From: Parafrankia irregularis
GTDB taxonomy: Bacteria > Actinomycetota > Actinomycetes > Frankiales > Frankiaceae
Length of the DNA stretch: 64,000 nt
NCBI RefSeq assembly: GCF_001536285.1
Contig: NZ_FAOZ01000005.1
Span: forward strand, 361,813-425,812
Direction: 5' to 3'
This document shows, in pieces, positions 2,580 through 20,121 of the stretch; the first letter of the stretch is position 1, and every line of letters starts with the position of its first letter. The position numbers were made by a program, and so were the translations under genes. Under the pieces are notes generated by a model that was not told the origin of the DNA, ran no database searches, and saw only the letters and a list, made by a program, of their open reading frames with translations.

Positions 2580-4226
2580 TCAGCCGGGCCCCCGACGGCC
2601 GGTCTCCTGGGCCTGCCCGGACATGATCGACGACGCCGGTTCGTCCGGCGGGGTGTGCCAGCCCAGCGCGCGCAGCCCGGACAGCACCGCCAGCGCGACC
2701 AGCAACGCGAGCAGGGCCTGTTTCGTCGGCCCGAGCACCCAGGCCGCCAGGCTCGACCGCTCCCTGGTCAGCAGGACCGTGGCGGCGAACGACGACGGCA
2801 CCGCCACCACCGCGACCGCGTCCGCGCCGAGCTGGAACGGCAGCGCCGACAGCGCGACCGTGAGGCTCATCAGGATCCCGATGGCCGCGGCCACCCGCCA
2901 CACGTCCGGCGAGACGCTCAGGCCGACCACGAGCCTGGCCCGCGCGGCGCGCCGCGCGTCCGTGCTGTAGAACGCGTAGACCTCACGGTTGCCGTGGACG
3001 TCCTCGACGTAGGTCCGGGCGATCCGCCGGTGCCACAGGTCGACGGTGATCGGCGTGCTCAGCTCGATGCTGGAGTCGTCGGTGCCGACGCTGACGTGGT
3101 AGCTGCCAGGACCGCCCGGATCGATGTCCACCAGCGCGACCGGGGTCAGCCACCGCTGCCGCATCGGGACCTCCCCGTCACGGACCGGGTGGCGCCGGGC
3201 CAGGATCGTCCGGCGCTCCTCCTTCATCTTGATCAGGCAGGGCCGGTACGGATCGACGATGACCGCCGCGAGTGCCTCCCACCGCCGCCCGTACTCGGCG
3301 ACGGTGCTCAGGACCGGCGTCGCCGCCGCGCCCGCCAGGCTCAGCTCGCCGATCCAGGTGGTGAACTCGCGCAGGTAGTACTCGATGTGCCCGATCTCCA
3401 ACGGCGTCGGGACGTCCGGGTCCCGCCACAGCTCACCGACCGCGAGCAGCAGGGTGTCGGCGCTGCTCAGCGGGTCGAACGGCTCGTCCAGCGCCCGGCC
3501 CAGCAGGTTCTGGGCCGGTTCGAGCAGTTCCTGCCAGGAACGCAGCGTCGGCGCGGGGACGACGAGGTCGGCCTCGGCGTCGAGATAGGTCCGCACCGCC
3601 TCGAACGGCAGCGGCCGGTCCCCGCGCGGTGCCAGCTGCGGCAGGTTGCCGGTGAGCCGCCCTGGGCGGAAGCGTGAGATCGCGTCCACGACCCGGCGGG
3701 CCGGGCCGGGCAGCGGGCACCCGGCGGCCTCGGCGAGCAACGCGATCAGATTGCCCTGGATCGCGACCGACGTCCCGTAGGGCATCAGGTGGGCGTCCGA
3801 CCCGCCGGGGCCGACGAGGTCGAACCCGACGAGCGCGCGTTTGGGCAGGGTGGAGATCGGGAGCAGGAGGCAGACCTCGGGCGGCAGCCGGCCCGCGGTG
3901 TCGAGCCGGCCGGTGCCCGGGACGATGCTGTTCAGCAGCCCGTCCAGCGGCCCCCAGTTGATCGACCTGGCGAGCTGGCAGCGGTTGGCGCTGACGATCG
4001 TGAACTGGTCGACGACCCGGCGCCGCAGCCCCTGGTACTCCGCCGGGGGCGCCAGCAGCATCGTGGTGACCTCGTCCACATCGGTGAGGTCGAGAATCGG
4101 GGCACTGTCGGCGTCGTCCCGCCGGCGCCACCGCCGCAGGCGGCCAGGCCAGGGCCCCGCAGGCCCCGCCGAACTACCCGAACCACCCGAACTGCTCACA
4201 TCGGGCGACAGTAGCAGCACCCTCAC
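2580..4226 (-). CDS. Unrecognised 548-residue membrane protein
   Basis: No family recognised. Residues 1-45 are a low-complexity Gly/Ser/Pro then Arg-rich stretch. Residues 46-420 form a soluble domain with no obvious catalytic motif, and WGPLDGLLNSIVPGTGR is a distinctive segment. Three hydrophobic helices follow at about 430-455, 458-478 and 500-523, then a short hydrophilic tail. This suggests a large cytosolic domain anchored by C-terminal helices. The start is a GTG with no clear ribosome-binding site; other in-frame GTG codons downstream are possible. It lies 24 nt downstream of ackA in the same direction, so it may be the third gene of an xfp-ackA transcript. Coding status is well supported by length and codon pattern; function is unknown. 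Confidence 0.8.
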   Translation of the reverse strand: MRVLLLSPDVSSSGGSGSSAGPAGPWPGRLRRWRRRDDADSAPILDLTDVDEVTTMLLAPPAEYQGLRRRVVDQFTIVSANRCQLARSINWGPLDGLLNSIVPGTGRLDTAGRLPPEVCLLLPISTLPKRALVGFDLVGPGGSDAHLMPYGTSVAIQGNLIALLAEAAGCPLPGPARRVVDAISRFRPGRLTGNLPQLAPRGDRPLPFEAVRTYLDAEADLVVPAPTLRSWQELLEPAQNLLGRALDEPFDPLSSADTLLLAVGELWRDPDVPTPLEIGHIEYYLREFTTWIGELSLAGAAATPVLSTVAEYGRRWEALAAVIVDPYRPCLIKMKEERRTILARRHPVRDGEVPMRQRWLTPVALVDIDPGGPGSYHVSVGTDDSSIELSTPITVDLWHRRIARTYVEDVHGNREVYAFYSTDARRAARARLVVGLSVSPDVWRVAAAIGILMSLTVALSALPFQLGADAVAVVAVPSSFAATVLLTRERSSLAAWVLGPTKQALLALLVALAVLSGLRALGWHTPPDEPASSIMSGQAQETGRRGPG

Positions 4227-4250
4227 ATAGCGCGCGCCCGCCCGAGATGC

Positions 4251-5360
4251 TCACCCCGCGTGTGCCGGCAGCTGCGCGCGGGCCGCCCGGGCGATCTCGA
4301 CGTCCTCACGCGCCTCGATGATCAGGGTGCGGACCGACGCTCCGGAAGCACTGATCTCCAGGTCCCCGCCCTGATACGAGCTGTTGCGCTCCGCGTCGAG
4401 CGCGACGCCCAGGAAACCGAGCCCGGCGGCGGCACCGGAGCGCACCGGCGGGGCGTGCTCCCCCACCCCACCCGTGAAGACCAGGGCGTCCAGCCCACCG
4501 AGGGCGGCCGTCATGGCGGCGATCTCGGCCCGCAGCCGATGCAGGTAGACGGCGAGGCCCAGGGCCTCCGGCGTACCGGGCCGCCGCGCGCCGTCGAGCA
4601 CCGCGCGCATGTCCGCGGAGCCGACGAGCCCGGTCATGCCGCTGCGGTGGAACAGGGCGTCCGTCAGCTCCTCGGCGGTCATCCCCCGCTCCGTCTGCAG
4701 CCACAGCAGCAGGCCGGGGTCCACCGTTCCCGAGCGGGTGGCCATCACCATGCCCTCCAGCGGGGTGAAGCCCATCGTCGTGTCGACGCTGACGCCGTCG
4801 CGCACCGCCGCCAGCGACGCTCCCGAGCCCAGGTGCGCGGTGACGACACGCCGGGCGCCGGTGAGCTCCGCGGCGCGCCGTGACGCGTACGCGTGGGACA
4901 GGCCGTGAAACCCGTACCGACGCACCCCGTACTCGTCGCGCCAGCGCATCGGAACCGGGTAGGTGATCGCCTCGGGCGGCATGCGGGCGTGGAACGCGGT
5001 GTCGAAGCAGGCGACCCTCGGCACCCCCGGCAGCACCGCCGAGACGTCCGCCAGCGCGGTCAGCGCCGCCGGCTGGTGCAGCGGCGCAAGTGGCACCAGC
5101 GCGCGCAGCTGCCGCTCGACCTCGTCATCGACCAGGACCGGGTCGACGAAGACAGACCCCCCGTGCACCACCCGGTGGCCGGTGATCGCCACCTCGCCAG
5201 CCTGGGCGAGCTCCTCGACCGCCCGTTCCAGCTCGTCGGGGTCGGGCCGGCCGGCGACCGCACGCAGGTCGTGCGCGGCCAGCACCCGGTCGCCCGGATC
5301 GAGCAGCCGCAGCTTCACGCTGGACGAGCCGGCGTTGACCACCAGCACGTTCCCGCCCAT
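4251..5360 (-). CDS. ackA: Acetate kinase
   Basis: Interconverts acetyl phosphate + ADP and acetate + ATP. Family motifs occur in order: VNAGSSSVKLR at the N-terminus, FDTAFHARMP, the catalytic-histidine segment HLGSGASLA, TMGFTPLEG, and FTGGVGEHAPPVR. At 369 residues it is somewhat shorter than the roughly 400 usual, but all motifs are contiguous with no sign of a frameshift. It begins 50 nt after the phosphoketolase stop. Acetyl phosphate made by that enzyme is its direct substrate, so the pair forms a complete ATP-yielding branch. A purine-rich GAGGACGGGG precedes the ATG. Confidence 0.96.
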   Translation of the reverse strand: MGGNVLVVNAGSSSVKLRLLDPGDRVLAAHDLRAVAGRPDPDELERAVEELAQAGEVAITGHRVVHGGSVFVDPVLVDDEVERQLRALVPLAPLHQPAALTALADVSAVLPGVPRVACFDTAFHARMPPEAITYPVPMRWRDEYGVRRYGFHGLSHAYASRRAAELTGARRVVTAHLGSGASLAAVRDGVSVDTTMGFTPLEGMVMATRSGTVDPGLLLWLQTERGMTAEELTDALFHRSGMTGLVGSADMRAVLDGARRPGTPEALGLAVYLHRLRAEIAAMTAALGGLDALVFTGGVGEHAPPVRSGAAAGLGFLGVALDAERNSSYQGGDLEISASGASVRTLIIEAREDVEIARAARAQLPAHAG

Positions 5361-5410
5361 AAGACCCCGTCCTCGGTCGCTCTCGGCTCTCGGCCGCTCC
5401 CGGCCTGACC

Positions 5411-7846
5411 TCAGTACGGCCAGGTCCAGTCACGGATGCTGGGATCGTCCTCGCCGTGGTCCCGGGTGTAGGCCCGGGCGGCCAGCCGAGCATCGATCAT
5501 CCGCTGCCGCACGTGCGCGGCGCGCGCCCCCAGGCTGGGCACCCGGTCGATCACGTCGACCACCAGGTGGAAGCGGTCCAGATTGTTCATCATCACCATG
5601 TCGAAGGGCGTGGTTGTCGTGCCCTCCTCGATGTAGCCCCGCACGTGCATGTTGTTGTGGTTGCGACGGCGGTAGGTGAGCCGGTGGATCAGCCACGGAT
5701 AGCCGTGGTAGGCGAAGATGATCGGCCGGTCCGAGGTGAACAGCGCGTCGAAGCGGGCGTCGGAGATCCCGTGCGGGTGCTCCGCCTCGTCCTGCAGGCT
5801 CATGAGGTCGACGACGTTGACGACACGCACCTTCAGGTCGGGGAAGTGCTGGCGCAGGATGTCGACCGCGGCGAGCGTCTCCAGGGTCGGGATGTCCCCG
5901 GCGCACGCCATGACGACGTCCGGGGTGCCGTCGCCGTCCTCGGTGTGGTCGTTGCTCGCCCAGTCCCAGATGCCCAGGCCGCGGGTGCAGTGCGCGATCG
6001 CGTCCCGCATCGGCAGGTAGGTCAGCGCGGACTGCTTGCCGGCCACGATCACGTTGATGTAATGCCGGCTGCGCAGGCAGTGGTCCGCCACCGAGAGCAG
6101 GGTGTTCGCGTCCGGCGGCAGGTAGACCCGGATGATCTCGGCCTTCTTGTTCACCACATGGTCGATGAAGCCCGGGTCCTGGTGCGAGAAGCCGTTGTGG
6201 TCCTGCCGCCACACGTGGCTGGTGAGCAGGTAGTTCAGCGACGCGATCGGCCGCCGCCACGGAATGTGCCGGGACGTCTTCAGCCACTTCGCGTGCTGGT
6301 TCACCATCGAGTCGACGATGTGGATGAACGCCTCGTAGCAGGAGAAGAAGCCGTGCCGGCCGGTGAGCAGGTACCCCTCCAGCCAGCCCTGGCACAGGTG
6401 CTCGGAGAGCACCTCCATCACCCGGCCGTCCGGCGCGAGGTCCTCGTCCGTCTCCACGACCTCGGCGTTCCAGGCCCGCCCGGTGGTCTCGAACAGCGCG
6501 CCCAGCCGGTTCGAGGCGGTCTCGTCCGGGCCCATGACCCGGAAGGTGTTCGGGTTGGCGCGCATGACGTCCCGCAGGAAGCCACCGAGCACCCGGGTCG
6601 CCCCCGTCCAGGCCCGGCCGGGCTTGGGCACGTCGACCGCGTAGTCGCGGAAGTCCGGCAGGGTCAGGTCACGCAGCAGCTCGCCGCCGTTGGCGTGCGG
6701 GTTGGCGCTCATCCGGCGCGTTCCCACCGGGGCCAGCGCCGCGAGCTCGGGCTTCAGCCGCCCGTCGGGCTCGAACAGCTCCCAGGGCCGGTAGCTGCGC
6801 AGCCAGGTCTCGAGCTGGGCGAGGTGGGCCGGGTCGCGCTTCGGCTCGCTGATCGGTACCTGGTGCGAACGCCAGTTGCCCTCGACCGGCAGCCCGTCCA
6901 CCGTGGTCGGGCCGGTCCAGCCCTTCGGAGTGCGCAAGATGATCATCGGCCAGGCGGGCCGGGACGGATCACCAAGCCGACGGGCCCGGTCCTGGATGTC
7001 GTGGATCCGCGAGATCGCGAGGTCGAGACAGTGCGCGAACCGCTGATGGACCTCCGCGGGGTCGTCGCCGGCCACGTGCAGCGGCTCGTAGCCGTAGCCC
7101 CGCATCAGCGACTCGAGCTCGGCCTCCGGGATACGGGCGAGGATGGCCGGCTGCGCGATCTTGTAGCCGTTGAGGTGCAGGATCGGCAGCACGACGCCGT
7201 CCCGCACCGGGTCGAGGAACTTGTTCGAATGCCAGCTCGCGGCCAGCGGCCCGGTTTCCGCCTCACCGTCACCGACGACGGCGGCGACCAGCAGGTGCGG
7301 GTTGTCGAAGGCTGCTCCGAAGGCGTGCGTGAGGGCATAGCCCAGCTCACCGCCCTCGTGAATCGAGCCGGGCACCTCCGGCGCCACATGGCTCGGAATG
7401 CCTCCGGGGAAGGAGAACTGGCGGAACAGCCGCCGCATGCCCTCCCGGTCCTGGGCCACTGACGGGTAGATCTCGCTGTAGGTGCCCTCGAGATAGGTGT
7501 TCGCCACGATCCCCGGACCGCCGTGACCAGGGCCGACCACATAGATCGCGTCAAGGTCGTTGCGCCGGATGACCCGGTTGAGGTGGGCGTAGATCAGGTT
7601 GAGGCCGGGTGTGGTCCCCCAGTGGCCGAGCAGGCGCGACTTGATGTGCTCGGCCCGCAGGGGCTCGGACAGCAGCGGATTGTCCAGCAGGTAGATCTGC
7701 CCGACCGAGAGGTAGTTCGCGGCCCGCCAGTAGGCGTCGACCAGGCGCAGCTCCTCGGTGGACAGCGGGCGTGCCGCCGCCACGGCTGGCCCTGCCGACC
7801 CCGCCGCCCTGGCTGAACCCGCGTCGATCTCGGCAACGTCGATCAT
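5411..7846 (-). CDS. xfp: Phosphoketolase (Xfp family)
   Basis: Thiamine-diphosphate enzyme that splits xylulose-5-P (and often fructose-6-P) with phosphate to give acetyl phosphate and glyceraldehyde-3-P or erythrose-4-P. Hallmarks are [17 protein letters not shown], the ThDP-binding [16 protein letters not shown]-like RSHQVPI, and [13 protein letters not shown]. From the chosen ATG ([10 protein letters not shown]) it is 811 residues, the normal length. That start has a strong AGGGGAGGG five to six nt upstream; a longer frame to 7918 lacks such support. Followed by ackA. Substrate preference cannot be read from the sequence. Confidence 0.96.
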
Positions 7847-8051: not shown

Positions 8052-8861
8052 TCAGCCTTCGCCCGCCAACGGGCTCGACGCCACCTCGGTGCCGTCGTCG
8101 AGGGTTCGCACCTGGAAGTCGGCGAAGACGTTCGGCGCCACCTCCTGCAACGCCCGCAGGATGGCGACCGCCAGGCCGCGGATCTCGACATCGGCATGCT
8201 CGCTGGCCCGCATCGCGACGAAATGCCGCCACGCGCGGTAGTTGCCCGTGACGACGATCCTGGTCTCGGTCGCGTTCATCAGCACCGACCGTGCCGCCTG
8301 CCGCGCCTGCTTACGCCGCGACGTCGGCGCCGACACGTCGGCGAACCGCTTCTCCAGGCCCTCCAACAGCCGCGCGTAGGCCTCCATCGAGGCGGCGGCG
8401 GCCTCGGTGAACAGATCGTGCAGCTCCGGATCGTCGGCGATCACCTCGGGCTCGACGAGTGCCGCGTCATGCTCGGGGACGTATCGCTGGGAGAGCTGGC
8501 TGTAGGAGAAGTGCCGGTGCCGCACCAGCTCGTGCGTGAGGCTGCGTGACACCCCGGTGATGTAGAGGGACACCGACCCGTGTTCGAGGACCGACAGGTG
8601 GCCGACGTCGAGGATGTGCCGCAGGTAGCCCGCGTTCGTCGCGGTCGCCGGGTTCGGCTTGCTCCAGCTCTGGTAGCAGGCTCGACCCGCGAACTCCGCG
8701 AGTGCCTGGCCGCCGTCGGCGTCGGTGCTCCATGGCACGTCGCTCGGCGGCAGGAACTCGGTACGGGCGATGACCTGCACCCGCAGGCGAGCCACCGCCG
8801 GTACCTGGGCCCCCTCCGGGGACCGGCCCGGCCCGGCGGACCCGACGGTTTCGTCCGGCAT
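8052..8861 (-). CDS. thyX: Flavin-dependent thymidylate synthase
   Basis: FAD-dependent methylation of dUMP to dTMP using methylenetetrahydrofolate and NADPH. The diagnostic ThyX signature [13 protein letters not shown] is present near the middle, preceded by HLSVLEH and followed by [19 protein letters not shown]. From the ATG at 8861 ([10 protein letters not shown]), which has a GGGGGAGGG just upstream, the protein is 269 residues. The open frame extends further upstream to 8990 without support. In many actinobacteria thyX lies directly between dapB and dapA; here both neighbours are displaced. Confidence 0.96.
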
Positions 8862-9513
8862 GAAACCCTCCCCCACAGCGCTCTCCACGAGACTGACCTC
8901 CACAAGGAATCCGCACCCACACGCTCGGCGACCCGCCCGGCCCTCGATCTGGACTCGGGTCAGACGGCGCGCCACGCGCCCCCCGGCCACGGGTCAGGCT
9001 GCGGATGCGAGCCTCCCGACCTCGCCGGCAGCGGATGCGCACCACGGTATCCGCTCGCTTCGCGGTGACCCGGCCGGGCATCGGACGAGACCCCGAGGGA
9101 CCACCTCATCAACAGCAGCATCGTCTTCCCGGTCCGACCCGCGCCGGGACCCGTTGGCGTGGGCGTCATCGGCATGCACCAGACCGGTTACGTTCGAACC
9201 GCCCAACCGCCCCGTGTCGCCACCCACTTACCCGTCCGGTGACCCGTCCGGAACACGGCGGTGGCCGCGACGGCCCACCGTGGTACACCGGATGTGGGCT
9301 CTTCGCCACAGCCGGTGAGGGGTCCGGTGCTCACCCGGAAGTGTGGCCTCGGCCGGGGGTCTCCGCCCCCGTCAGCTCCCGGCCGAGGCCCACACCGACG
9401 GCGGGCACCATGTCCACCACGCGGCCGCGACCACCGGTCGGCCCGTCTCCCGCGCCGCCGACCGGCGCCGCGGCCGCGTGGCGCGAACGGGCGCCGCACC
9501 GGCACCGCACGGA
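8862..9513. other. 652-bp non-coding interval, hisS to thyX
   Basis: No reading frame in this interval looks coding; long frames on both strands here are low-complexity Arg/Pro translations. It should hold the hisS 3' end and the thyX promoter. The only strong structure is the large inverted repeat at 9341-9395. Confidence 0.6.
9341..9395 (-). terminator. Large imperfect inverted repeat after hisS
   Basis: Arms 9341-9357 (GTGTGGCCTCGGCCGGG) and 9378-9395 pair over 17 bp with one bulged base, around a C/G-rich core that can form an inner hairpin. It begins about 120 nt downstream of the hisS stop. There is no U-tract, which is usual for hairpins in this G/C range. Terminator or 3' stabiliser function is inferred. 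Confidence 0.5.
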
Positions 9514-10833
9514 TCAGGCGTCGGGGGCCCACCGCGCGGGGTCGGCGGTGCGCTGGTCGCCGGTCGCCATGTTCTTGACCTCGTGCTCGCGGTCGTCCGC
9601 GAACGGCGGGAACCAGACGTTCGGGATTCCCTTGCGGGAGGCGTAGCGGACCTGCTTGGCGATCTTGTCGGCCTGGTGGTACGTCTCAACCCGCAGGCCG
9701 CGCTCGCGCAGCGTCCGGGCGGTTGCAAGCGCCACCTGACGCCGTTCGTCACTCGGGATCACCATCAGCACCTGGGCCGGGCTCGCCGGGCCGCCGCCGA
9801 CCAGACCGTCCGCGACGAGCTTGGCGAAGATCCGGGTCAGCCCGATCGAGATCCCGACTCCGGGCAGATTGCGCCGGATGAACGTCCCGGCGAGGTCGTC
9901 GTACCGACCGCCTGAGCAGATGCTGCCGTAGCCGGGTGCGTCCACGAACTTCGCCTCGTAGACGGTGCCCGTGTAGTAGTCCAGGCCGCGCGCGATCGAC
10001 AGGTCGGCCACCACGCTGCCCGCCGGCAGGTCGGCCAGATCGTCGAGCACCCGCCCCAGCTCGTCGAGCCCTTCGGTGAGCAGGTCTGACTTGACTCCGA
10101 GCCGGCCGACCTCGTCGACGACCGAGGCGTCGGAGCCCCGGACCGCGGCCAGGTCGAGGCAGGCCTTCGCCTGGTCCGCACTGAGGCCCACCGGGCCGGT
10201 CAGCAGCGCCTCCACCCCCGCACGACCGATCTTGTCGATCTTGTCGGCGGCCCGGATCACAGCCAGCGGATCGCCGATGCCGAGGCCCTCGTAGAAACCC
10301 TGCAGCACCTTGCGGTTGTTGATGTTCAGCGTCCAGGCTGGGACGCCGAGCGTCGTGAGGATCTCGTGCACGATCCGGGGCAGCTCGGCGTCGAAGTGCA
10401 GCGGCACGTGATCGACGTTGATGACGTCGATGTCGCACTGGGTGAACTCGCGGTACCGGCCCTCCTGCGGCCGCTCCCCGCGCCAGACCCGCTGGATCTG
10501 GTACCGCTTGAACGGGAAGACCAGGTCGTTGAAGTGCGCGGCGACGTAACGGGCGAACGGGACCGTCAGGTCGAAGTGCAGACCGAGACGCGCGCTGTCG
10601 TCATCGTCGGTGGCCTGCAGGCGCCGCAGGGTGTAGACCTCCTGCGACGTCTCGCCCTTCGCCATCAGTGCCTCGAGCGCCTCCACCGACGGGGTCTCGA
10701 CCGAGCAGAACCCGTACCGCTCGAACGAGGCACGAATGGTGTCCAGCCAGCGCAGCTCCACCATCCGCACGTCGGGAAGCCACTCGGGAAACCCGCTGAC
10801 CAGCGTGGGACGAACCACGGGCGCATCGGCCAT
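9514..10833 (-). CDS. hisS: Histidyl-tRNA synthetase
   Basis: Class II synthetase that charges tRNA-His. Motif 2 appears as VWRGERPQEGRYREFTQ, the histidine-binding segment as ARGLDYYTGTVYE, and motif 3 as GVGISIGLTRI. The C-terminal anticodon-binding domain (LMVIPSDERRQ to the end) is complete. At 439 residues it is full length. GAGGAG lies about nine nt upstream of the ATG. It sits 171 nt after the J-like/FN3 gene, in the block that separates dapB from thyX, and I see no relA beside it, where hisS is often found in actinobacteria. I see no T-box element. Confidence 0.95.
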   Translation of the reverse strand: MADAPVVRPTLVSGFPEWLPDVRMVELRWLDTIRASFERYGFCSVETPSVEALEALMAKGETSQEVYTLRRLQATDDDDSARLGLHFDLTVPFARYVAAHFNDLVFPFKRYQIQRVWRGERPQEGRYREFTQCDIDVINVDHVPLHFDAELPRIVHEILTTLGVPAWTLNINNRKVLQGFYEGLGIGDPLAVIRAADKIDKIGRAGVEALLTGPVGLSADQAKACLDLAAVRGSDASVVDEVGRLGVKSDLLTEGLDELGRVLDDLADLPAGSVVADLSIARGLDYYTGTVYEAKFVDAPGYGSICSGGRYDDLAGTFIRRNLPGVGISIGLTRIFAKLVADGLVGGGPASPAQVLMVIPSDERRQVALATARTLRERGLRVETYHQADKIAKQVRYASRKGIPNVWFPPFADDREHEVKNMATGDQRTADPARWAPDA

Positions 10834-11004: not shown

Positions 11005-13686
11005 TCAGCCAGCCCCACTCCCGCTCCCGCTGCCGCTCCCGGCCCCGACGACGCCGCCACCAGCCGGGGCTGTCCGCACCGCGGCGGCGGAACCCGGTCC
11101 GACAACGGTCAGGCAGCCGGTCGCATCGATCAGGACACGGCCGGCCGCGGCACCCGCGACCACCAGCTCACCGCGCTCCCGCACGCAGGCGAACAGGGCG
11201 ACATGCAGTGGACGGACGTCCGGCGGCAGGAAGCCGCCATCGATGTCATACCGAGTGTTGGTGATCTTGCGCGTGGTGGCGCCCAGTTCCTGCGCGCCGG
11301 CGGGCGGGAGGTCCGCACGGGCGGTGACCATCATCTCGGTGCACCCCGCCGGCCAGGTCCAGCACAACCGGCCGCCCTCCATCCGCAGATCCGAGGCCGG
11401 GCCGATCTCGTCGGCCGCTGTGCGCGGTCCCGGCGGGGGCACCTCGAACGCGGCGGCGCCGGCCTGTCCGCCTTCGGGCGGTGCGCCATCAACCGGCCCC
11501 AGCGTGGAACCGCCGCTCTCGCTCCGGGGCTGCTCTGCCGCGCCCGGCCCGGCGGCGCCCGGCCCGGCCGCGCCCGGTCCTGCGGCGCCCGCGCCGGCCG
11601 TGCCCGCGCCGACGGGGTCGGCGGTGCCAGCAGGGTCGGGCCATCTCGCGGGCTTCGACCACACTCCGCCGATGCCGGCGATCACCTCGTATTCAGGGAT
11701 CGACGAACCGCGGAACACCCCGCCGTCCTCGATGACGGTGGCTGGCGTGACGCCCACCGCCCGAGCCTTCCCGTCCGCCGTGATCCGGCGGATGCGATAG
11801 CTGGCATCACCAGGAGTTACTGTCCGCCGCCAGCTGATGACCACGGAGGACCCGTCCCAACGCGCGGCCACGCCGGTCGGCGGTTCGACCGACGCAGGCC
11901 CAGCAGCTGCCGTTTCAGCGGACTGCGGTTGCGCCGGCAGTCCTTCCACCGCCGGCCGTTCCGCCGCCGGCCGTTCGGTGGACGGCCGTTCGGTGGACGG
12001 CGCCGGGCGGGCGGACGTGTCTGCTCGCGGGCCCACCGTCGTCGCCGACCCGGTTCCACCGCTCGCGGCACCCGGGCCGGCGGCGCCGGCCGCGGGTTCG
12101 GCCAGCAGGGCGAGTGCCTCTTCGTGGTCCGCCACCAGGGCCACCGCCGCCCGGACCAGCCGGACCCGGTCCGGGCCGACCGACGTCCGCGCCCGGCGGA
12201 CGAGCTCGTCCGCCTGGGCACACTGGTCGAGCGCCAGCGCCCGCACCTCCTCGAGCAGCCGCCCACCGGGGCCTGGCACGTCGGCGGCGAGGGGGGCAAG
12301 GGCCTCGAGGAGGCCCAGCACCGCGCGGTGACGGTTCGCGGTGAGCTCGGCGACGATGGCCTGCCAGCGCTCACCGGCGTCCCGGATCACCCGCTCGACC
12401 TCGTCGTCGAGCGCCCTGATCGGTGGCAGCGTCTCGCCCGCGAGCTCCCGGGCGCGGGCGATCTCACCGCTGGCCGCGATCGGCCGCCCCGCCCGCAGCT
12501 CGGCACGGGCACGCGACAGCAGGGCCTGCCAGTCGCTGGCCCGGGCCGGCACCGGTCGGGAGGCCGGCCGGTCGCGCGTGGGCGCGTCACTGCCGGTGGT
12601 CTCGGCCGCTCCCCCGGAGCCGCCCGTGGCCGGCCCACCGCCCGTCCACCCACCTTGCGCGGCACCGCTTCCCGGACGCGACGGGTGCGACGGGCTCGTC
12701 AGACGCCCGGTCTCCGGTGGCTCCACGCCGTGCTCGCGGGCGAGATCCGCGACGACCGCGCGGGCCCGGCCCTGGTCGAGGCCCTCGGCCACGGCCTGGG
12801 CGACGAGCTCGGCCGCGGCCGTGGCGAGCAGGCGGTCCTCGATCAGCACGGCGGTGGCCACCCGCGGCCGCAGCACCGCCTTGACCGGCTCGACGAGCGC
12901 GTCGAGATAGGCCTCGGGGTCGCCGTCGACGAGCAGCGCCCGCGCCGCCGTGAGCAGGTCGTCCAACAGTGCGCGGCGCCGGTCCGGCCGACGCTCGCGG
13001 TTGCGCGCCGCGGCGGCGTCGCGGACGGCGCGGATCTCCTCCCGGCTGCTTTCCGGCGTGACCCCGAGCAGGTCGAAGAGGCTTCGCGGCGGGGTGGTTC
13101 CCACGATCCGGCCAAGCTCGTCGAGATCGGCGCGCACCTGGCGTATCACCTCGGCCGACACGGGCCGGCGGGCCGACGTGGCCGTGGCCCGTTCCGCCGT
13201 GCCGGCGGGGAGCCGCCGATGCCGGCGTATGCGCAGCTCGAACGCCGCGTCGTCGATTCCATGCGTGGCCGCCAGCGCACGCAGCCCGGCGATCTTGTCC
13301 TCGGGCAGGCCACCGAAGCGGCTCACCAGCCGGCGAACGGCGGCGTCGAGCTCGGCGAAGCGCTCGCCGTCCCGGGCGGTGCGGGCGGCGGCGACCCGCC
13401 CGGCGAGCTCCGTTCGGGCCGCCGTCGTTCGCAGCGCCGCGGACAGTTCGCCGTGCAGGCCCAGCAGCGCGATGATCACACCGCGGTAGCGGGGATGATC
13501 CCGGCTGCGCTGCCAGAACGCCCAGACCTCGTCGATGCGTGCCCAGACCTCGGCGTCGCCGAGCCGGGCGGCCTCCTCGATCGGGATGTCGTAGATCTCG
13601 AACGGGTCACTCTGCTCGGCACCGCCGCGGGCGTGGACCGCGGCGAGCACCCGGCTCCGGTAGTCGTTCGAGTCGAAGGGCAGCAC
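11005..13686 (-). CDS. J-like and fibronectin-like partner of Hsp70
   Basis: An 893-residue protein starting at a GTG with GGGAG six to seven nt upstream. Residues 1-160 form an alpha-helical N-terminal domain containing SDPFEIYDIP and VWAFWQRSRDHPRYRG. Residues 200-263 resemble a J domain: helix I SLFDLLGVTPESSREEIRA, then RERRPD where J domains have HPD, then a helix III-like RALLDDLLTAARALLVDGD. A helical region follows at 380-530, then Pro/Ala/Glu linkers. Residues about 600-682 look like a fibronectin type III module (VEPPTGVAARWDGSSVVISW), and 762-850 look like a second beta module. The tail is Gly-Ser repeats. It is 40 nt downstream of the Hsp70-like gene, so likely its co-chaperone or adaptor. 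Domain calls are by eye. Confidence 0.75.
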   Translation of the reverse strand: MLPFDSNDYRSRVLAAVHARGGAEQSDPFEIYDIPIEEAARLGDAEVWARIDEVWAFWQRSRDHPRYRGVIIALLGLHGELSAALRTTAARTELAGRVAAARTARDGERFAELDAAVRRLVSRFGGLPEDKIAGLRALAATHGIDDAAFELRIRRHRRLPAGTAERATATSARRPVSAEVIRQVRADLDELGRIVGTTPPRSLFDLLGVTPESSREEIRAVRDAAAARNRERRPDRRRALLDDLLTAARALLVDGDPEAYLDALVEPVKAVLRPRVATAVLIEDRLLATAAAELVAQAVAEGLDQGRARAVVADLAREHGVEPPETGRLTSPSHPSRPGSGAAQGGWTGGGPATGGSGGAAETTGSDAPTRDRPASRPVPARASDWQALLSRARAELRAGRPIAASGEIARARELAGETLPPIRALDDEVERVIRDAGERWQAIVAELTANRHRAVLGLLEALAPLAADVPGPGGRLLEEVRALALDQCAQADELVRRARTSVGPDRVRLVRAAVALVADHEEALALLAEPAAGAAGPGAASGGTGSATTVGPRADTSARPAPSTERPSTERPAAERPAVEGLPAQPQSAETAAAGPASVEPPTGVAARWDGSSVVISWRRTVTPGDASYRIRRITADGKARAVGVTPATVIEDGGVFRGSSIPEYEVIAGIGGVWSKPARWPDPAGTADPVGAGTAGAGAAGPGAAGPGAAGPGAAEQPRSESGGSTLGPVDGAPPEGGQAGAAAFEVPPPGPRTAADEIGPASDLRMEGGRLCWTWPAGCTEMMVTARADLPPAGAQELGATTRKITNTRYDIDGGFLPPDVRPLHVALFACVRERGELVVAGAAAGRVLIDATGCLTVVGPGSAAAVRTAPAGGGVVGAGSGSGSGSGAG

Positions 13687-13726: not shown

Positions 13727-15562
13727 TTACGGCCAGCCCGGCGACCCACCGAGCCCGCCGAGCCCGCCGGAGTCGCCGTCCCGCGGCTTCTTGCGCAGCG
13801 GGTCCGGACCACCGGTGGCGGGCCGGTCCAGGCCCCGCTCCCGGCGGGCACGCGCGACCTGCTCACGCTCGCGGGCGACGTCCGCCTGGCTGAGCGCGGC
13901 CGAGGTCTCGATGCGGACGGTCAACGGCTGGTCGGCGAGCCCTTCGTGCCGGGCCGTCACCTCCAGGATGCCGTCGAAGCCCATGCGGAACATGATTTCA
14001 ATCTGGGTTCCGGCAGGATAGCCCGGCGGAATCCCGATGATCTCCGCATTCGTGATGATCTTGTTGTCCTCGATCCGGGTGGATTCCACTCCGCCGGCCT
14101 GCTCGACGACATGCACCATCACCGCGTCCTGATCATCGCGGACGGTGCCGAACAGCCGGCGAACGGCAACCGGCAGCCGGTCGTTGCGGTGCACGAGGAA
14201 GACCGCGCGCTGGTCGCCGAACCGGTCCAGCGCCAGCACCCCGAAACCCCGCGACACCACGTTGACGACCTGGACCTCGACCGTCCGGCGAACCCGGTCC
14301 GCGGGCAGCCCGAGGGCCTCGGCCAACCGGCGGCAGGCAGCGTCCAGATCGGCCGGCGCCGCGGTGTCCACCGAGGCCCCGTCCACCAGCTGGCCGCGGG
14401 TCACCAGGTCGGCGGCGACCAGGCGCTCCATCGCCTTCTTCTGGCCGTAGATGGCGGCACCGCGAGCGACAGCCAGATCGGGATCGGTGAGTTCCACCGG
14501 CACGGACAGCTCCGCGGCCAGGCGACGGGCGACGGCCGGCATCCGCGACGCCCCGCCGACGAGCAGGACCCGGTCGACACCGCGAACTCCCCGCTCACGG
14601 GCGGCGTCGATGGCCGACCGGGTCAGCGCGAGGGTGCGGTCGAGCAGACCGGCGGTCAGGCTCTCCATCTCGTCACGGGTGAGGGTGACGTCCAGAGATC
14701 TGCCGCCGTGGCTGACCGTGACCACGGTCGACTCGGCCTGGGTCAGCTCGCGGCGAGCACGCTCGGCGGCGAGTGACAGCTCCTGGGCCGCCTCGCCGTT
14801 GTCCAGCGGGTCGTCGGCATCGGGGTGGGCCGCGAGGAAGCGGTCGGAGAGAAAAAGGACGATCTTCTCGTCCCAGTCCGCCCCGCCGAGCTGATGATCG
14901 CCATCGGTGGCGACGACGGAGACCCTGCGGTCGGCGAGCTCGACGATGGTCACGTCGAAGGTCCCTCCGCCGAGGTCGTAGACGAGGGCCACCTCCTCGG
15001 CGAGCGCCCCCGGCCCGGCGAGTGTCCGCCGGCCCGCGACCTCGAAACGGGCGAACCCGTAGGACAGCGCGGCGGCCGTCGGTTCGTTGATGACATCCAC
15101 GACGTTCAGGCCGGCGTACTCCCCCGCCAGCACCGTCGCCCTGCGCTCCTCGTCACCGAAGTAGGCGGGGACGGTGATGACCACGTCGCGGACCGGCTCG
15201 CCGACGGTCAGGCCGGCATCCGAGACCAGTGCCTTGAGGATCAGTCCGCTCACCGCGGGCGCCGACCACGCCGCCCCGTGCGTCACGAAACGCCAGTCAC
15301 GGTCGCCCATCCGGCGCTTGACGAGCGAACAGACGTCATCAGGGCGGGCCCGGGCGAGCCGCCGGGCGGTCTCCCCGGTGATGTAGTCGTTCTGACCGAC
15401 GAAGAGGACCACGCTGGGCAGCGTGGACGACCCGTCCATCAGCGGGACGACCTCGGGATCGCCGGAGCTCGCGACGGTCGCCAGGCAGCTGAAGGTCGTC
15501 CCCAGGTCAATACCGAAAACGGTTCCGGCGTTCGCCGCCCGGCCACCTGTATGTCGCGCCAC
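13727..15562 (-). CDS. Atypical Hsp70 (DnaK-like) protein
   Basis: ATP-binding Hsp70 fold, 611 residues. Nucleotide-binding motifs are intact: FGIDLGTTFS (16-25), VINEPTAAALSYG (157-169), YDLGGGTFDV (195-204), LLVGGASRMP (333-342). An insertion of roughly 40 residues (about 380-425) follows the ATPase domain. The usual linker (VLLLDVTPLSLG) is replaced by a divergent segment around VVNVVSRGFGVLAL. A substrate-binding beta domain (about 430-553) is recognisable (EDNKIITNAEIIGIPP), but only about 55 charged, Gly-rich residues follow, so the helical lid is essentially absent. The start is a GTG without a clear ribosome-binding site. It heads a pair with the J-like/FN3 gene and is unlikely to be the housekeeping dnaK. 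Confidence 0.9.
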   Translation of the reverse strand: MARHTGGRAANAGTVFGIDLGTTFSCLATVASSGDPEVVPLMDGSSTLPSVVLFVGQNDYITGETARRLARARPDDVCSLVKRRMGDRDWRFVTHGAAWSAPAVSGLILKALVSDAGLTVGEPVRDVVITVPAYFGDEERRATVLAGEYAGLNVVDVINEPTAAALSYGFARFEVAGRRTLAGPGALAEEVALVYDLGGGTFDVTIVELADRRVSVVATDGDHQLGGADWDEKIVLFLSDRFLAAHPDADDPLDNGEAAQELSLAAERARRELTQAESTVVTVSHGGRSLDVTLTRDEMESLTAGLLDRTLALTRSAIDAARERGVRGVDRVLLVGGASRMPAVARRLAAELSVPVELTDPDLAVARGAAIYGQKKAMERLVAADLVTRGQLVDGASVDTAAPADLDAACRRLAEALGLPADRVRRTVEVQVVNVVSRGFGVLALDRFGDQRAVFLVHRNDRLPVAVRRLFGTVRDDQDAVMVHVVEQAGGVESTRIEDNKIITNAEIIGIPPGYPAGTQIEIMFRMGFDGILEVTARHEGLADQPLTVRIETSAALSQADVAREREQVARARRERGLDRPATGGPDPLRKKPRDGDSGGLGGLGGSPGWP

Positions 15563-15642: not shown

Positions 15643-17840
<2,198 letters not shown>

Positions 17841-17885
17841 AACACTCCTGTCAGGAGGAGGACCCCCGCGGACACAGGGGCCGAC

Positions 17886-20075
17886 TCAGGATTCGGCGGC
17901 AACCGCGTCAACGGCCTCCGCGCCAGGCGCCAGGCTGATCTTGCCCCGGGCATCGATCTCCGTGATCTCCACCTGCAGCTTCTGGCCGACGGACAGCACG
18001 TCCTCGACCTTCTCCACCCGCTTGCCACCCGCGAGCTGCTTGAGCTTGCTGACGTGCAGCAGGCCGTCCTTGCCCGGCGTCAGCGAGACGAAGGCACCGA
18101 AGTTGGTGATCTTCACGATGGTACCGAGGTAACGCTCGCCTACCTCGGGCATCTGCGGGTTGGCGATCGCGTTGATCGCCGAACGGGCGGTCTCGGCGGA
18201 CGTCCCGTCGGCGGCGCCGATGTAGATCGTGCCGTCGTCCTCGACCGTGATCTCGGCGCCGGAGTCCGCCTGGATCTGGTTGATCATCTTGCCCTTGGGC
18301 CCGATGACCTCACCGATCTTGTCAACCGGGATCTTCACCGAGATGACCCGCGGCGCGTGCGTGGACATCTCGTCCGGCGCGCCGATGGCCTCGGCCATCA
18401 CTTCCAGGATCGTCAGGCGGGCCGCTCGCGCCTGCTGCAGCGCACCGGCCAGCACCGAGGCGGGGATGCCGTCGAGCTTGGTGTCGAGCTGCAGCGCCGT
18501 CACGAAGTCGCGGGTGCCGGCGACCTTGAAGTCCATGTCACCGAAGGCGTCCTCGGCTCCGAGGATGTCGGTCAGGGTGACGAACGTGTCGCCCTCCTGG
18601 ATCAGCCCCATCGCGATGCCGGCCACCGGCGCCTTGAGCGGCACACCGGCGTTCAGCAGCGACAGCGTGCTGGCACACACCGAGCCCATGCTGGTCGAAC
18701 CGTTGGAGCCCAGCGCCTCGGAGACCTGGCGGATCGCGTAGGGGAACTCCTCGCGGTCCGGCAGCACCGGGAGCAGGGCCCGCTCGGCGAGCGCGCCGTG
18801 GCCGATCTCGCGCCGCTTCGGCGAGCCCACCCGGCCCGTCTCACCGGTGGAGTACGGCGGGAAGTTGTAGTTGTGCATGTACCGCTTGGTGCGCTCCGGG
18901 TTGAGCGTGTCGACGGTCTGCTCCATCCGCAGCATCGCCAGCGTCGTGACGCCGAGGATCTGCGTCTCGCCCCGCTCGAACAGCGCCGATCCGTGTACCC
19001 GCGGGATGTAGTCGACCTCGGCCGACAGCTCCCGGATCTCGGTGGTGGAACGGCCGTCGATGCGCACGCCGTCCGCGACGATCCGGGAACGGACCAGCTT
19101 CTTCGTCAGCGCCCGGTAGGCCGGGCCGATCTCCTTGTCGCGCCCCTCGAACTGGCCGGAGACCTTCTCCACGGCCAGCACTCGGACCCGCTCCAGCTCC
19201 GCCTCGCGCTCGGCCTTGCCAGCGATGCGCAGCGCCGCCGCCAGCTCCTCGCCGACCGCCGCCGTCAGCGACTCCAGCACGTCGGCGTGGTAGTCGACGA
19301 ACAGGGGGAAGTCGCGCTGCGGCTTGGCCGTGCCGGCCGCCAGCTCGCTCTGGGCCCGGCACAGCTCGCGGATCGCCGGCTTCGCGGCTTCCAGACCGGC
19401 CGCGACGACCTCTTCCGTCGGCGCGGGCGCACCGCCCGCGAGCAGGCCCACCGTCCCCGGCGTGGCCTCCGCCTCGACCATCATGATCGCGACGTCGGAG
19501 CCGTCCTCCAGCACCCGGCCGGCCACGACCATGTCGAACGTCGCCCGCTCGAGCTCGGCGTGGGTCGGGAAGGCGATCCACTCACCGTCGACGAAACCGA
19601 CCCGGGTCGCCCCGATCGGACCGCTGAACGGCAGCCCCGCCAGCATCGTCGACGCGCTCGCCGCGTTGATCGCGACGACGTCGTAGAGGGTCTCCGGATC
19701 CAGCGCCAGCACCGTCGCGACGACCTGGATCTCGTTGCGCAGCCCCTTGGCGAACGAGGGCCGCAGCGGTCGGTCGATGAGCCGGCAGGTCAGGATCGCG
19801 TCCTCGCTGGGGCGACCCTCCCGGCGGAAGAAGGAACCGGGGATGCGCCCCGCCGCGTACATCCGCTCCTCGACGTCGACCGTGAGCGGGAAGAAGTCCA
19901 GCTGCTCCTTCGGCGACCGACTCACCGTCGTCGCCGAGAGGACCATGGTGTCGCCCAGGTAGGCGACCACCGAACCGGCCGCCTGCCGTGCCAGCCGGCC
20001 GGTCTCGAACCGCACCGTGCGGGGCCCGGCCGGCGTCGTGATGACCGCCTCGGCCGCCTGTGTCGAGTCGTCCAC
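17886..20075 (-). CDS. pnp: Polynucleotide phosphorylase
   Basis: Phosphorolytic 3'-to-5' exoribonuclease; actinobacterial orthologues also have guanosine pentaphosphate synthetase activity. Two RNase PH domains are visible ([18 protein letters not shown]; second core around [20 protein letters not shown]), then a KH domain with [12 protein letters not shown] and an S1 domain ([20 protein letters not shown]). I chose the GTG at 20075 ([11 protein letters not shown]): GGAG lies six nt upstream, and the N-terminus then matches the family. Longer frames from 20087 or 20114 lack good sites. Length 729 residues. A conserved leader structure lies just upstream (20122-20200). Confidence 0.96.
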
Positions 20076-20121
20076 TCGATACTCCATCCTCTTCGTGGGC
20101 CGTGCCCGCGCCATCGAGGAT

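Follow-up and report, generated by a model that had tools for sequence, protein, structure and literature searches.

A stretch of 64,000 nucleotides from Parafrankia irregularis (contig NZ_FAOZ01000005.1, positions 361,813 to 425,812; referred to as the window), which belongs to a genome of 9.5 Mb (G000), carries on its minus strand a gene for an Hsp70-like protein of 611 amino acids (15562-13727) and, directly downstream, a gene for a partner protein of 893 amino acids (13686-11005) that is named by none of the family models used. By computational analysis, this conserved and co-inherited pair combines a J fold in the partner (D2), predicted from profile comparisons and structure models and lacking the motif His-Pro-Asp (HPD) at its structural position, with an Hsp70 that, judging from alignments, has lost the J-docking residues R167, Q378 and D393 (numbering of DnaK from Escherichia coli) and the helical lid. 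For the Hsp70 cycle, HPD has been called invariant and the arginine that it contacts a key residue (PMC7289447). With modest confidence we favor the explanation that J folds of the partner dock or assemble one dedicated Hsp70 on a scaffold without HPD-Arg167 triggering of ATP hydrolysis.

Conservation and inheritance of the gene pair

The GTG start of the partner gene at position 13686 was assigned from an alignment of orthologues and an upstream AGGGAG, and the Hsp70-like protein (13727-15562) matches the Pfam HSP70 model with an E-value of 5.7e-93; all window features described below lie on the same minus strand. The first 327 residues of the partner were matched in 34 of the 35 genomes of the bacterial family and in all 27 genomes with a completeness of 90 % or more and little contamination. 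A paralogue (34-40 % identical) is present in 34 genomes, 29 of which additionally possess an orthologue (at least 62 % identical), and in the window's genome the paralogue adjoins its own Hsp70. Judged by the partner protein, Parafrankia and Frankia are the nearest named relatives. In a phylum-wide search at least 2 of 396 genomes, the window's own included, were positive, and because only five candidates were scored per genome this narrow range is a lower bound.

An alignment of 52 partner sequences (A2) comprised 29 orthologues including that of the window, 22 paralogues and one distant relative (L061 from genome G332) belonging to a different family of the same class. An Hsp70-like frame was found in the stretch around each of these 52 partners, and at the 44 loci that are readable at the position of R167 the two genes share a strand, with 0-743 bases between the end of the Hsp70 and the aligned region of the partner. 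The two partner subfamilies are each associated with a distinct Hsp70 subfamily; the Hsp70s are on average 77 % and 81 % identical within and 50 % identical between these subfamilies, as expected if the pair was duplicated as a unit. For the J-like domain, rates of nonsynonymous (dN) and synonymous (dS) substitution were 0.04-0.06 and 0.42-0.68 in four divergent within-genus comparisons, 0 and 0.10 with a near-identical genome, and 0.17-0.19 and 0.41-0.49 with two genomes of another genus. The partner reading frame is real and under purifying selection.

Changes in the Hsp70-like protein

The HPD residues of DnaJ touch DnaK at several points: H33 meets the backbone of L391 in the linker, P34 lies against P419, and D35 interacts with both R167 and Q378 (Mayer 2021, PMC8215388). 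The Hsp70s of the pair were aligned in 23 orthologue and 21 paralogue rows together with 30 canonical DnaKs from Frankiaceae and E. coli DnaK. The position of R167 is occupied by Asp in 22 of 23 orthologue rows, the other one being unreadable, and in 21 of 21 paralogue rows (Asp156 in the window, 15095-15097). At the position of Q378, Tyr is present in 22 of 23 orthologue rows and Tyr or Phe in 21 of 21 paralogue rows (Tyr372, 14447-14449), and D393 is replaced by Asn in 21 of 23 orthologue and 16 of 21 paralogue rows, with Asp still found in 5 paralogues. In the 30 canonical DnaKs from these bacteria all three residues are unchanged. Ahead of the linker, the Hsp70s of the pair have about 47 additional residues, present in the window as a stretch of 54 residues (374-427; 14282-14443) between the ATPase domain and the linker-equivalent VEVQVVNVVSRG (14246-14281; VLLLDV... 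in DnaK, with D393 changed to N). Two alignments of the linker disagree by a few residues at 389-392 and are identical in giving N for D393 in the window. A changed linker in the neighboring Hsp70, as the initial annotation had claimed, is therefore confirmed by both the substitution and the insertion. Past position 507 of DnaK the lid-less rows retain 14-54 residues, 54 of them in the window protein (C-terminus past the beta-sandwich, 13730-13924), compared with 131 in E. coli DnaK.

E217 and D477 are changed in most or all rows. In contrast to these positions, P419 is kept, the equivalents of K70, P143 and D148 are kept wherever readable, and D481 is kept in 22 of 23 orthologue and 21 of 21 paralogue rows. 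From its sequence, the Hsp70 is predicted to possess an actin-like ATPase domain with intact catalytic residues and ATP site, alongside the apparent loss of its J-docking residues and lid. Changes in the arginine network are reported to give ineffective stimulation by J proteins, and an Arg-to-Asp exchange, R207D in Ssq1, was among those assayed (Tomiczek 2020, PMC7289447).

Other lid-less Hsp70s of the class have Asp, Asn, Gly, Ser, Gln or Glu at position 167, with the exception of L223, which keeps Arg. Four Hsp70s with long C-termini have Arg (L222) or Pro (L221, L225 and L226, these three with frames of more than 840 amino acids). At L223 (G015:C203) the lid-less Hsp70 occupies 2826-4370, and the protein encoded by the next gene (4413-5597) begins with a stretch that looks J-like and has no HPD (FFGIPPYS...RRDWYAKTSSGNPRGREKA). 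A third type of lid-less Hsp70 with Asn at 167 is encoded at L174, L214, L215 and L217, where the first J-like region (D1) of the partners is recognizable and the second is much diverged (helix III of the QDERQTAAENI type). Genome G000 and its relatives are rich in Hsp70s, the Pfam HSP70 model matching 18 stretches in G000.

A predicted J fold in the partner

Region D2 comprises residues 199-265 of the partner (12892-13092), and residues 200-263 (12898-13089) read PRSLFDLLGV...RERRPDRRR...DGDPEAYLDA. In single-sequence scans with Pfam, NCBIfam and PADLOC no family scored above cut-off in the partner, nor was a J domain found there by single-sequence Pfam, NCBIfam and PDB-sequence scans. When residues 190-270 were compared by hhalign with a profile built from 25 distinct J-domain segments, an alignment spanning helices I-II was obtained with a probability of 90 and P 1.6e-6. 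In a sliding scan, segments containing helices I and II gave 89-91 %, a segment in which helix II was cut gave 76 %, and no other segment exceeded 5.4 %; among 200 column shuffles the highest value was 2.1 %, and the reversed profile gave 0.1 %. A search of all PDB sequences with the family profile returned 13 matches with E-values up to 10, of which 11 were J proteins within profile positions 170-226, each of them weak (the best was DNAJC3, E 0.013). Among 16 weak matches outside the family in the 35 genomes (E up to 0.01), 11 coincide with Pfam DnaJ domains, one belongs to a third Hsp70 pair as its partner, and the other four are apparently unrelated. Frames of about 380-400 amino acids at G029:C64, G028:C1:7608105 and G033:C254 were considered as DnaJ candidates and dropped as chance matches after reading their sequences, which we take to be IMP-dehydrogenase-like; a weak profile match at G030:C1:4883805 also looks unrelated.

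The AlphaFold2 model covering D2 had a predicted local distance difference test score (pLDDT) of 89.1 and a predicted template modeling score (pTM) of 0.48, the latter leaving the arrangement of domains uncertain, and contained helices at 203-207, 215-230, 236-253 and 257-283. Among 50 rows obtained with VIA-align, the top 23 were all J-protein chains (Z 5.7-7.9) and the first unrelated chain had a Z of 4.8, values below 8 being attainable by a common arrangement. Foldseek gave no match for D2 at E <= 0.001; among its best 50 rows J domains ranked highest, with probabilities up to 0.96 compared with 0.30 for the best other fold. These rankings, the profile evidence and the controls taken together indicate that residues 200-263 adopt a J fold, one that single-sequence scans with Pfam and NCBIfam miss. 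The J-domain plan initially annotated for these residues was thus substantiated, except that DGDPEAY, which had been taken as the end of helix III, leads into helix IV (257 on) in the model. That the likeness is a chance resemblance of a helical bundle is very improbable: the lack of a single-sequence family match, the Foldseek E-values above 0.001 and the ease with which helical bundles reach middling structural scores would speak for it, but the sequence-profile and structure evidence are independent and yet concordant, and the shuffled and sliding controls make it unlikely.

Structural position of the HPD motif

The initial annotation had placed Arg-Pro-Asp (RPD; residues 233-235, 12982-12990) at the site of HPD, with His exchanged for Arg within an otherwise kept motif. 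The register was deduced from structurally aligned ranges and helix positions. Residues 3-65 of E. coli DnaJ align with 200-262 of the model (61 pairs), LGV (10-12) falling on 207-209, and with this offset of 197 H33-P34-D35 of DnaJ land on R230-E231-R232 (12991-12999). Placing RPD on HPD would require three unaligned model residues, and the alignment rows leave 0 (8fe2), 1 (8fe5), 2 (5nro) and 2 (4rwu), too few for a shift of three residues. RPD caps helix III (236-253) in the model, where the loop between helices II and III has about 5 residues. In DnaJ this loop is longer, with several residues between HPD and helix III.

RPD is present in all 29 orthologues. The 22 paralogues have PHD (17), AHD (2), GHD, PLD or RHN (1 each) in these columns, and the relative from G332 has PAG. 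None of the 52 sequences has HPD at 233-235, which agrees with its reported absence. All but one of the 29 orthologues read R-[AEQ]-R at positions 230-232; R232 itself is found in 28 of the 29 and in 21 of the 22 paralogues.

That D2 is an ordinary J domain with RPD in place of HPD at the same site is hardly credible: a contrary result, in which hhalign with orthologues only placed RPD on HPD, was obtained by gapping helix II by three residues, whereas several full-domain structural alignments leave 0-2 model residues unaligned, RPD immediately precedes helix III and is not conserved beyond the orthologues, and the Hsp70 residues touched by the HPD aspartate are gone. Weighing structure above the orthologue-only alignment, we place RPD at the start of predicted helix III and not in the role of an HPD replacement.

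Further regions of the partner and neighboring genes

Region D1 (residues 24-98, 13393-13617) was predicted alone from an alignment of 56 sequences (A3) that included eight more distant partners, giving a pLDDT of 90.5. With VIA-align, 21 of the 23 best rows were J, HscB or RAC chains (Z 4.7-6.5) and the remaining two a respiratory-complex chain, the next unrelated row having a Z of 4.6. Comparison of D1 with J-domain profiles by sequence yielded nothing (probability 0.3-0.4), Foldseek found no match at E <= 0.001, and the sequence similarity between D1 and D2 is weak (P 0.002). On the predicted structure, D1 is probably a second J fold without HPD, in which the loop SRDHPRY (61-67) replaces the HPD loop.

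A helical module follows D2 (residues 266-322, 12721-12891; AlphaFold2 helices 257-283, 288-300 and 305-318). In the C-terminal half, residues 598-690 (11617-11895) resemble a fibronectin type III (FNIII) domain, since positions 2-42 of an 87-position profile of this region (A4) aligned with fibronectin chains (E 1.3e-6). Five of the 27 members matched Pfam fn3 with E-values of up to 0.1 (0.017 at best), and the window's own partner sequence did not match.

The gene pair is surrounded by what we take to be recognizable housekeeping genes, the same-strand neighbors at 8052-10833 and 15643-20114 presumably encoding thyX, hisS, dapB, an M16 peptidase and polynucleotide phosphorylase. In the second pair of the window's genome (L058, G000:C46:19500-34000), the partner frame has 1237 amino acids, and its J-like region is followed by a stretch that resembles a double zinc ribbon and scores below Pfam's cut-off; about 4 kb upstream of the Hsp70 of this pair lies a TerC/DUF475 gene. 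The distant pair at L110 (G332:C1:280000-296000), which has no RPD, lies near genes for TerD-domain, TerC/DUF475 and AIM24 proteins, and a link of this neighborhood to a tellurite-type stress response is possible.

Discussion

In the mechanism that we favor, an Hsp70 that has neither lid nor receptor for HPD and keeps its ATP site intact would work with a large scaffold whose N-terminal part carries the predicted J fold D2 and probably D1, each followed by helices, and whose C-terminal half would carry at least one fibronectin-type domain. The J folds would hold the dedicated Hsp70 on the scaffold and on its target and would not fire ATP hydrolysis by the HPD-Arg167 route. We infer physical docking, the scaffold role and the timing of the ATPase from the pairing, the D2 fold, the loss of the receptor, and the precedents of Ssq1 and Pam16.

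Several observations weigh against this explanation. In genome G025 an Hsp70 of the orthologue type (69 % identity across 574 residues) stands without a partner, no trace of which was found in the 6 kb downstream. The partner seems to have been lost at this locus (L227, G025:C155:1500-11500), where the frames downstream of the Hsp70 presumably represent a broken thyX and acetate kinase. Pairing is therefore not obligatory. In more distant pairs belonging to the wider family (L210-L213, L216, L219, L220 and L224) no J-like D2 can be recognized in the alignment. Of the features of DnaJ, D2 keeps LLGV of helix I and I21-R22 of helix II, and in the window sequence, by the structural register, R22 corresponds to R219, K26 to D223 and R27 to A224; the basic face of helix II is thus only partly kept, which argues against docking in the manner of DnaJ. 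The assignment of D1 comes from predicted structure, with Z values near those of unrelated folds and below 8, a range that a common arrangement can reach.

In a different explanation, the J folds would have ceased to bind the Hsp70 and would associate among themselves or with further proteins, the Hsp70 being held by another region of the partner or working without it. The combined loss of HPD, of part of the basic face and of the receptor residues would fit this possibility, as would the diverged family members that dispense with the D2 fold; the G025 locus lowers our confidence in docking and raises this alternative, which we nevertheless regard as doubtful. An Hsp70 frame accompanies the partner at all 52 loci, and dN/dS in the four divergent within-genus comparisons is about 0.1 for D2 as against about 0.2 for residues 1-330, an extra constraint that was not seen in the two comparisons with another genus.

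It is also conceivable, and in our judgment unlikely, that D2 still stimulates the Hsp70 by a charge-swapped trigger in which R232, in place of D35 of DnaJ, faces Asp156, in place of R167 of DnaK, which would make the pair orthogonal to DnaK/DnaJ. At 43 of the 44 readable paired loci Asp at 167 occurs together with a partner Arg at 232 or 233, and the lone pair with Gly at 167 (G332) has Arg at neither position. Moreover, DnaK R167H suppresses DnaJ D35N (PMC5519331, PMC7289447), which demonstrates that the D35-R167 contact can be re-paired. The counts, however, reflect essentially one ancestral event in an Arg-rich region, L053 and L109 have no Arg at 232 and Arg only at 233, and the diverged pairs L209-L212 have Asp at 167, of which L210 and L212 do not have a matching Arg at the aligned place; in addition, the register is derived from aligned ranges and not from coordinates. 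A naturally orthogonal pair that joins an inverted Asp35-Arg167 contact to a tandem J-fold scaffold and a lid-less Hsp70 appears less probable again. The same ancestry qualifies the joint evolution of the two changes proposed in the initial annotation: the losses do occur together in the compared pairs, but being shared by descent they amount to essentially one event. The sole variation within the family is the distant pair of G332, in which the Hsp70 Asp and the partner Arg are both absent, a double absence that is consistent with coupling and does not prove it.

Whether J folds position an Hsp70 without firing it, as in the docking mechanism that we favor, or whether the contact was rebuilt with reversed charge, a conserved bacterial pair without either side of the trigger that keeps a predicted J fold and an intact ATP site is a natural experiment. 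Either outcome would help to separate the steps of recognition and triggering and could yield orthogonal chaperone pairs. Among the open-licence papers listed in searches on J domains that are tandem, degenerate or devoid of HPD, on lid-less bacterial Hsp70s, on Frankia Hsp70s and on links between Ter, FNIII and Hsp70, no title or abstract opening matched the pair, which is not proof of absence. The excerpt of a paper on DnaK duplication (PMC11019930) names neither Frankia nor R167.

Compared with known systems, the Hsp70 resembles DnaK in its ATPase domain, with equivalents of K70, P143 and D148, and in its beta-sandwich domain with D481 mostly kept, and differs from it in the changes at R167, Q378, D393, E217 and D477 in most or all rows, in the longer stretch before the linker and in the missing lid. 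The predicted D2 resembles the J domain of DnaJ bound to DnaK (5nro) in its four-helix fold (residues 200-262, 2.1 A over 61 residues, Z 6.8), whereas it has no HPD, has K26 and R27 replaced and is embedded in a large scaffold. In the GAP1-N2 systems, an actinobacterial FNIII protein is fused to a DnaJ domain and encoded beside HSP70, GrpE and GTPases (Kaur et al. 2020, PMC7159879). Both cases involve a J-like FNIII protein of actinobacteria and an accompanying Hsp70 gene, whereas here HPD is absent and the Hsp70 is lid-less. A Pfam scan of 9 neighboring frames at two other loci of the family gave TerC/DUF475, TerD, AIM24 and glycoside hydrolase and no GTPase, 2 of the 9 frames having no match. 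The GTPase systems may be wider kin of the Hsp70/partner pair. Pam16/Tim16 of the mitochondrial import motor is a J-like domain with a corrupted HPD that acts as an adaptor of Hsp70 (PMC5773037, PMC10939069), and D2 likewise appears to be a J-like domain with a corrupted HPD beside an Hsp70. Pam16 partners a true J protein, Pam18, whereas in the present case the Hsp70 itself has lost its receptor residues; as to a possible HPD-bearing J protein of this kind, none of the genome's five Pfam DnaJ matches lies on the window's contig. Pam16 is the nearest functional precedent for a J-like domain without HPD that serves as an adaptor.

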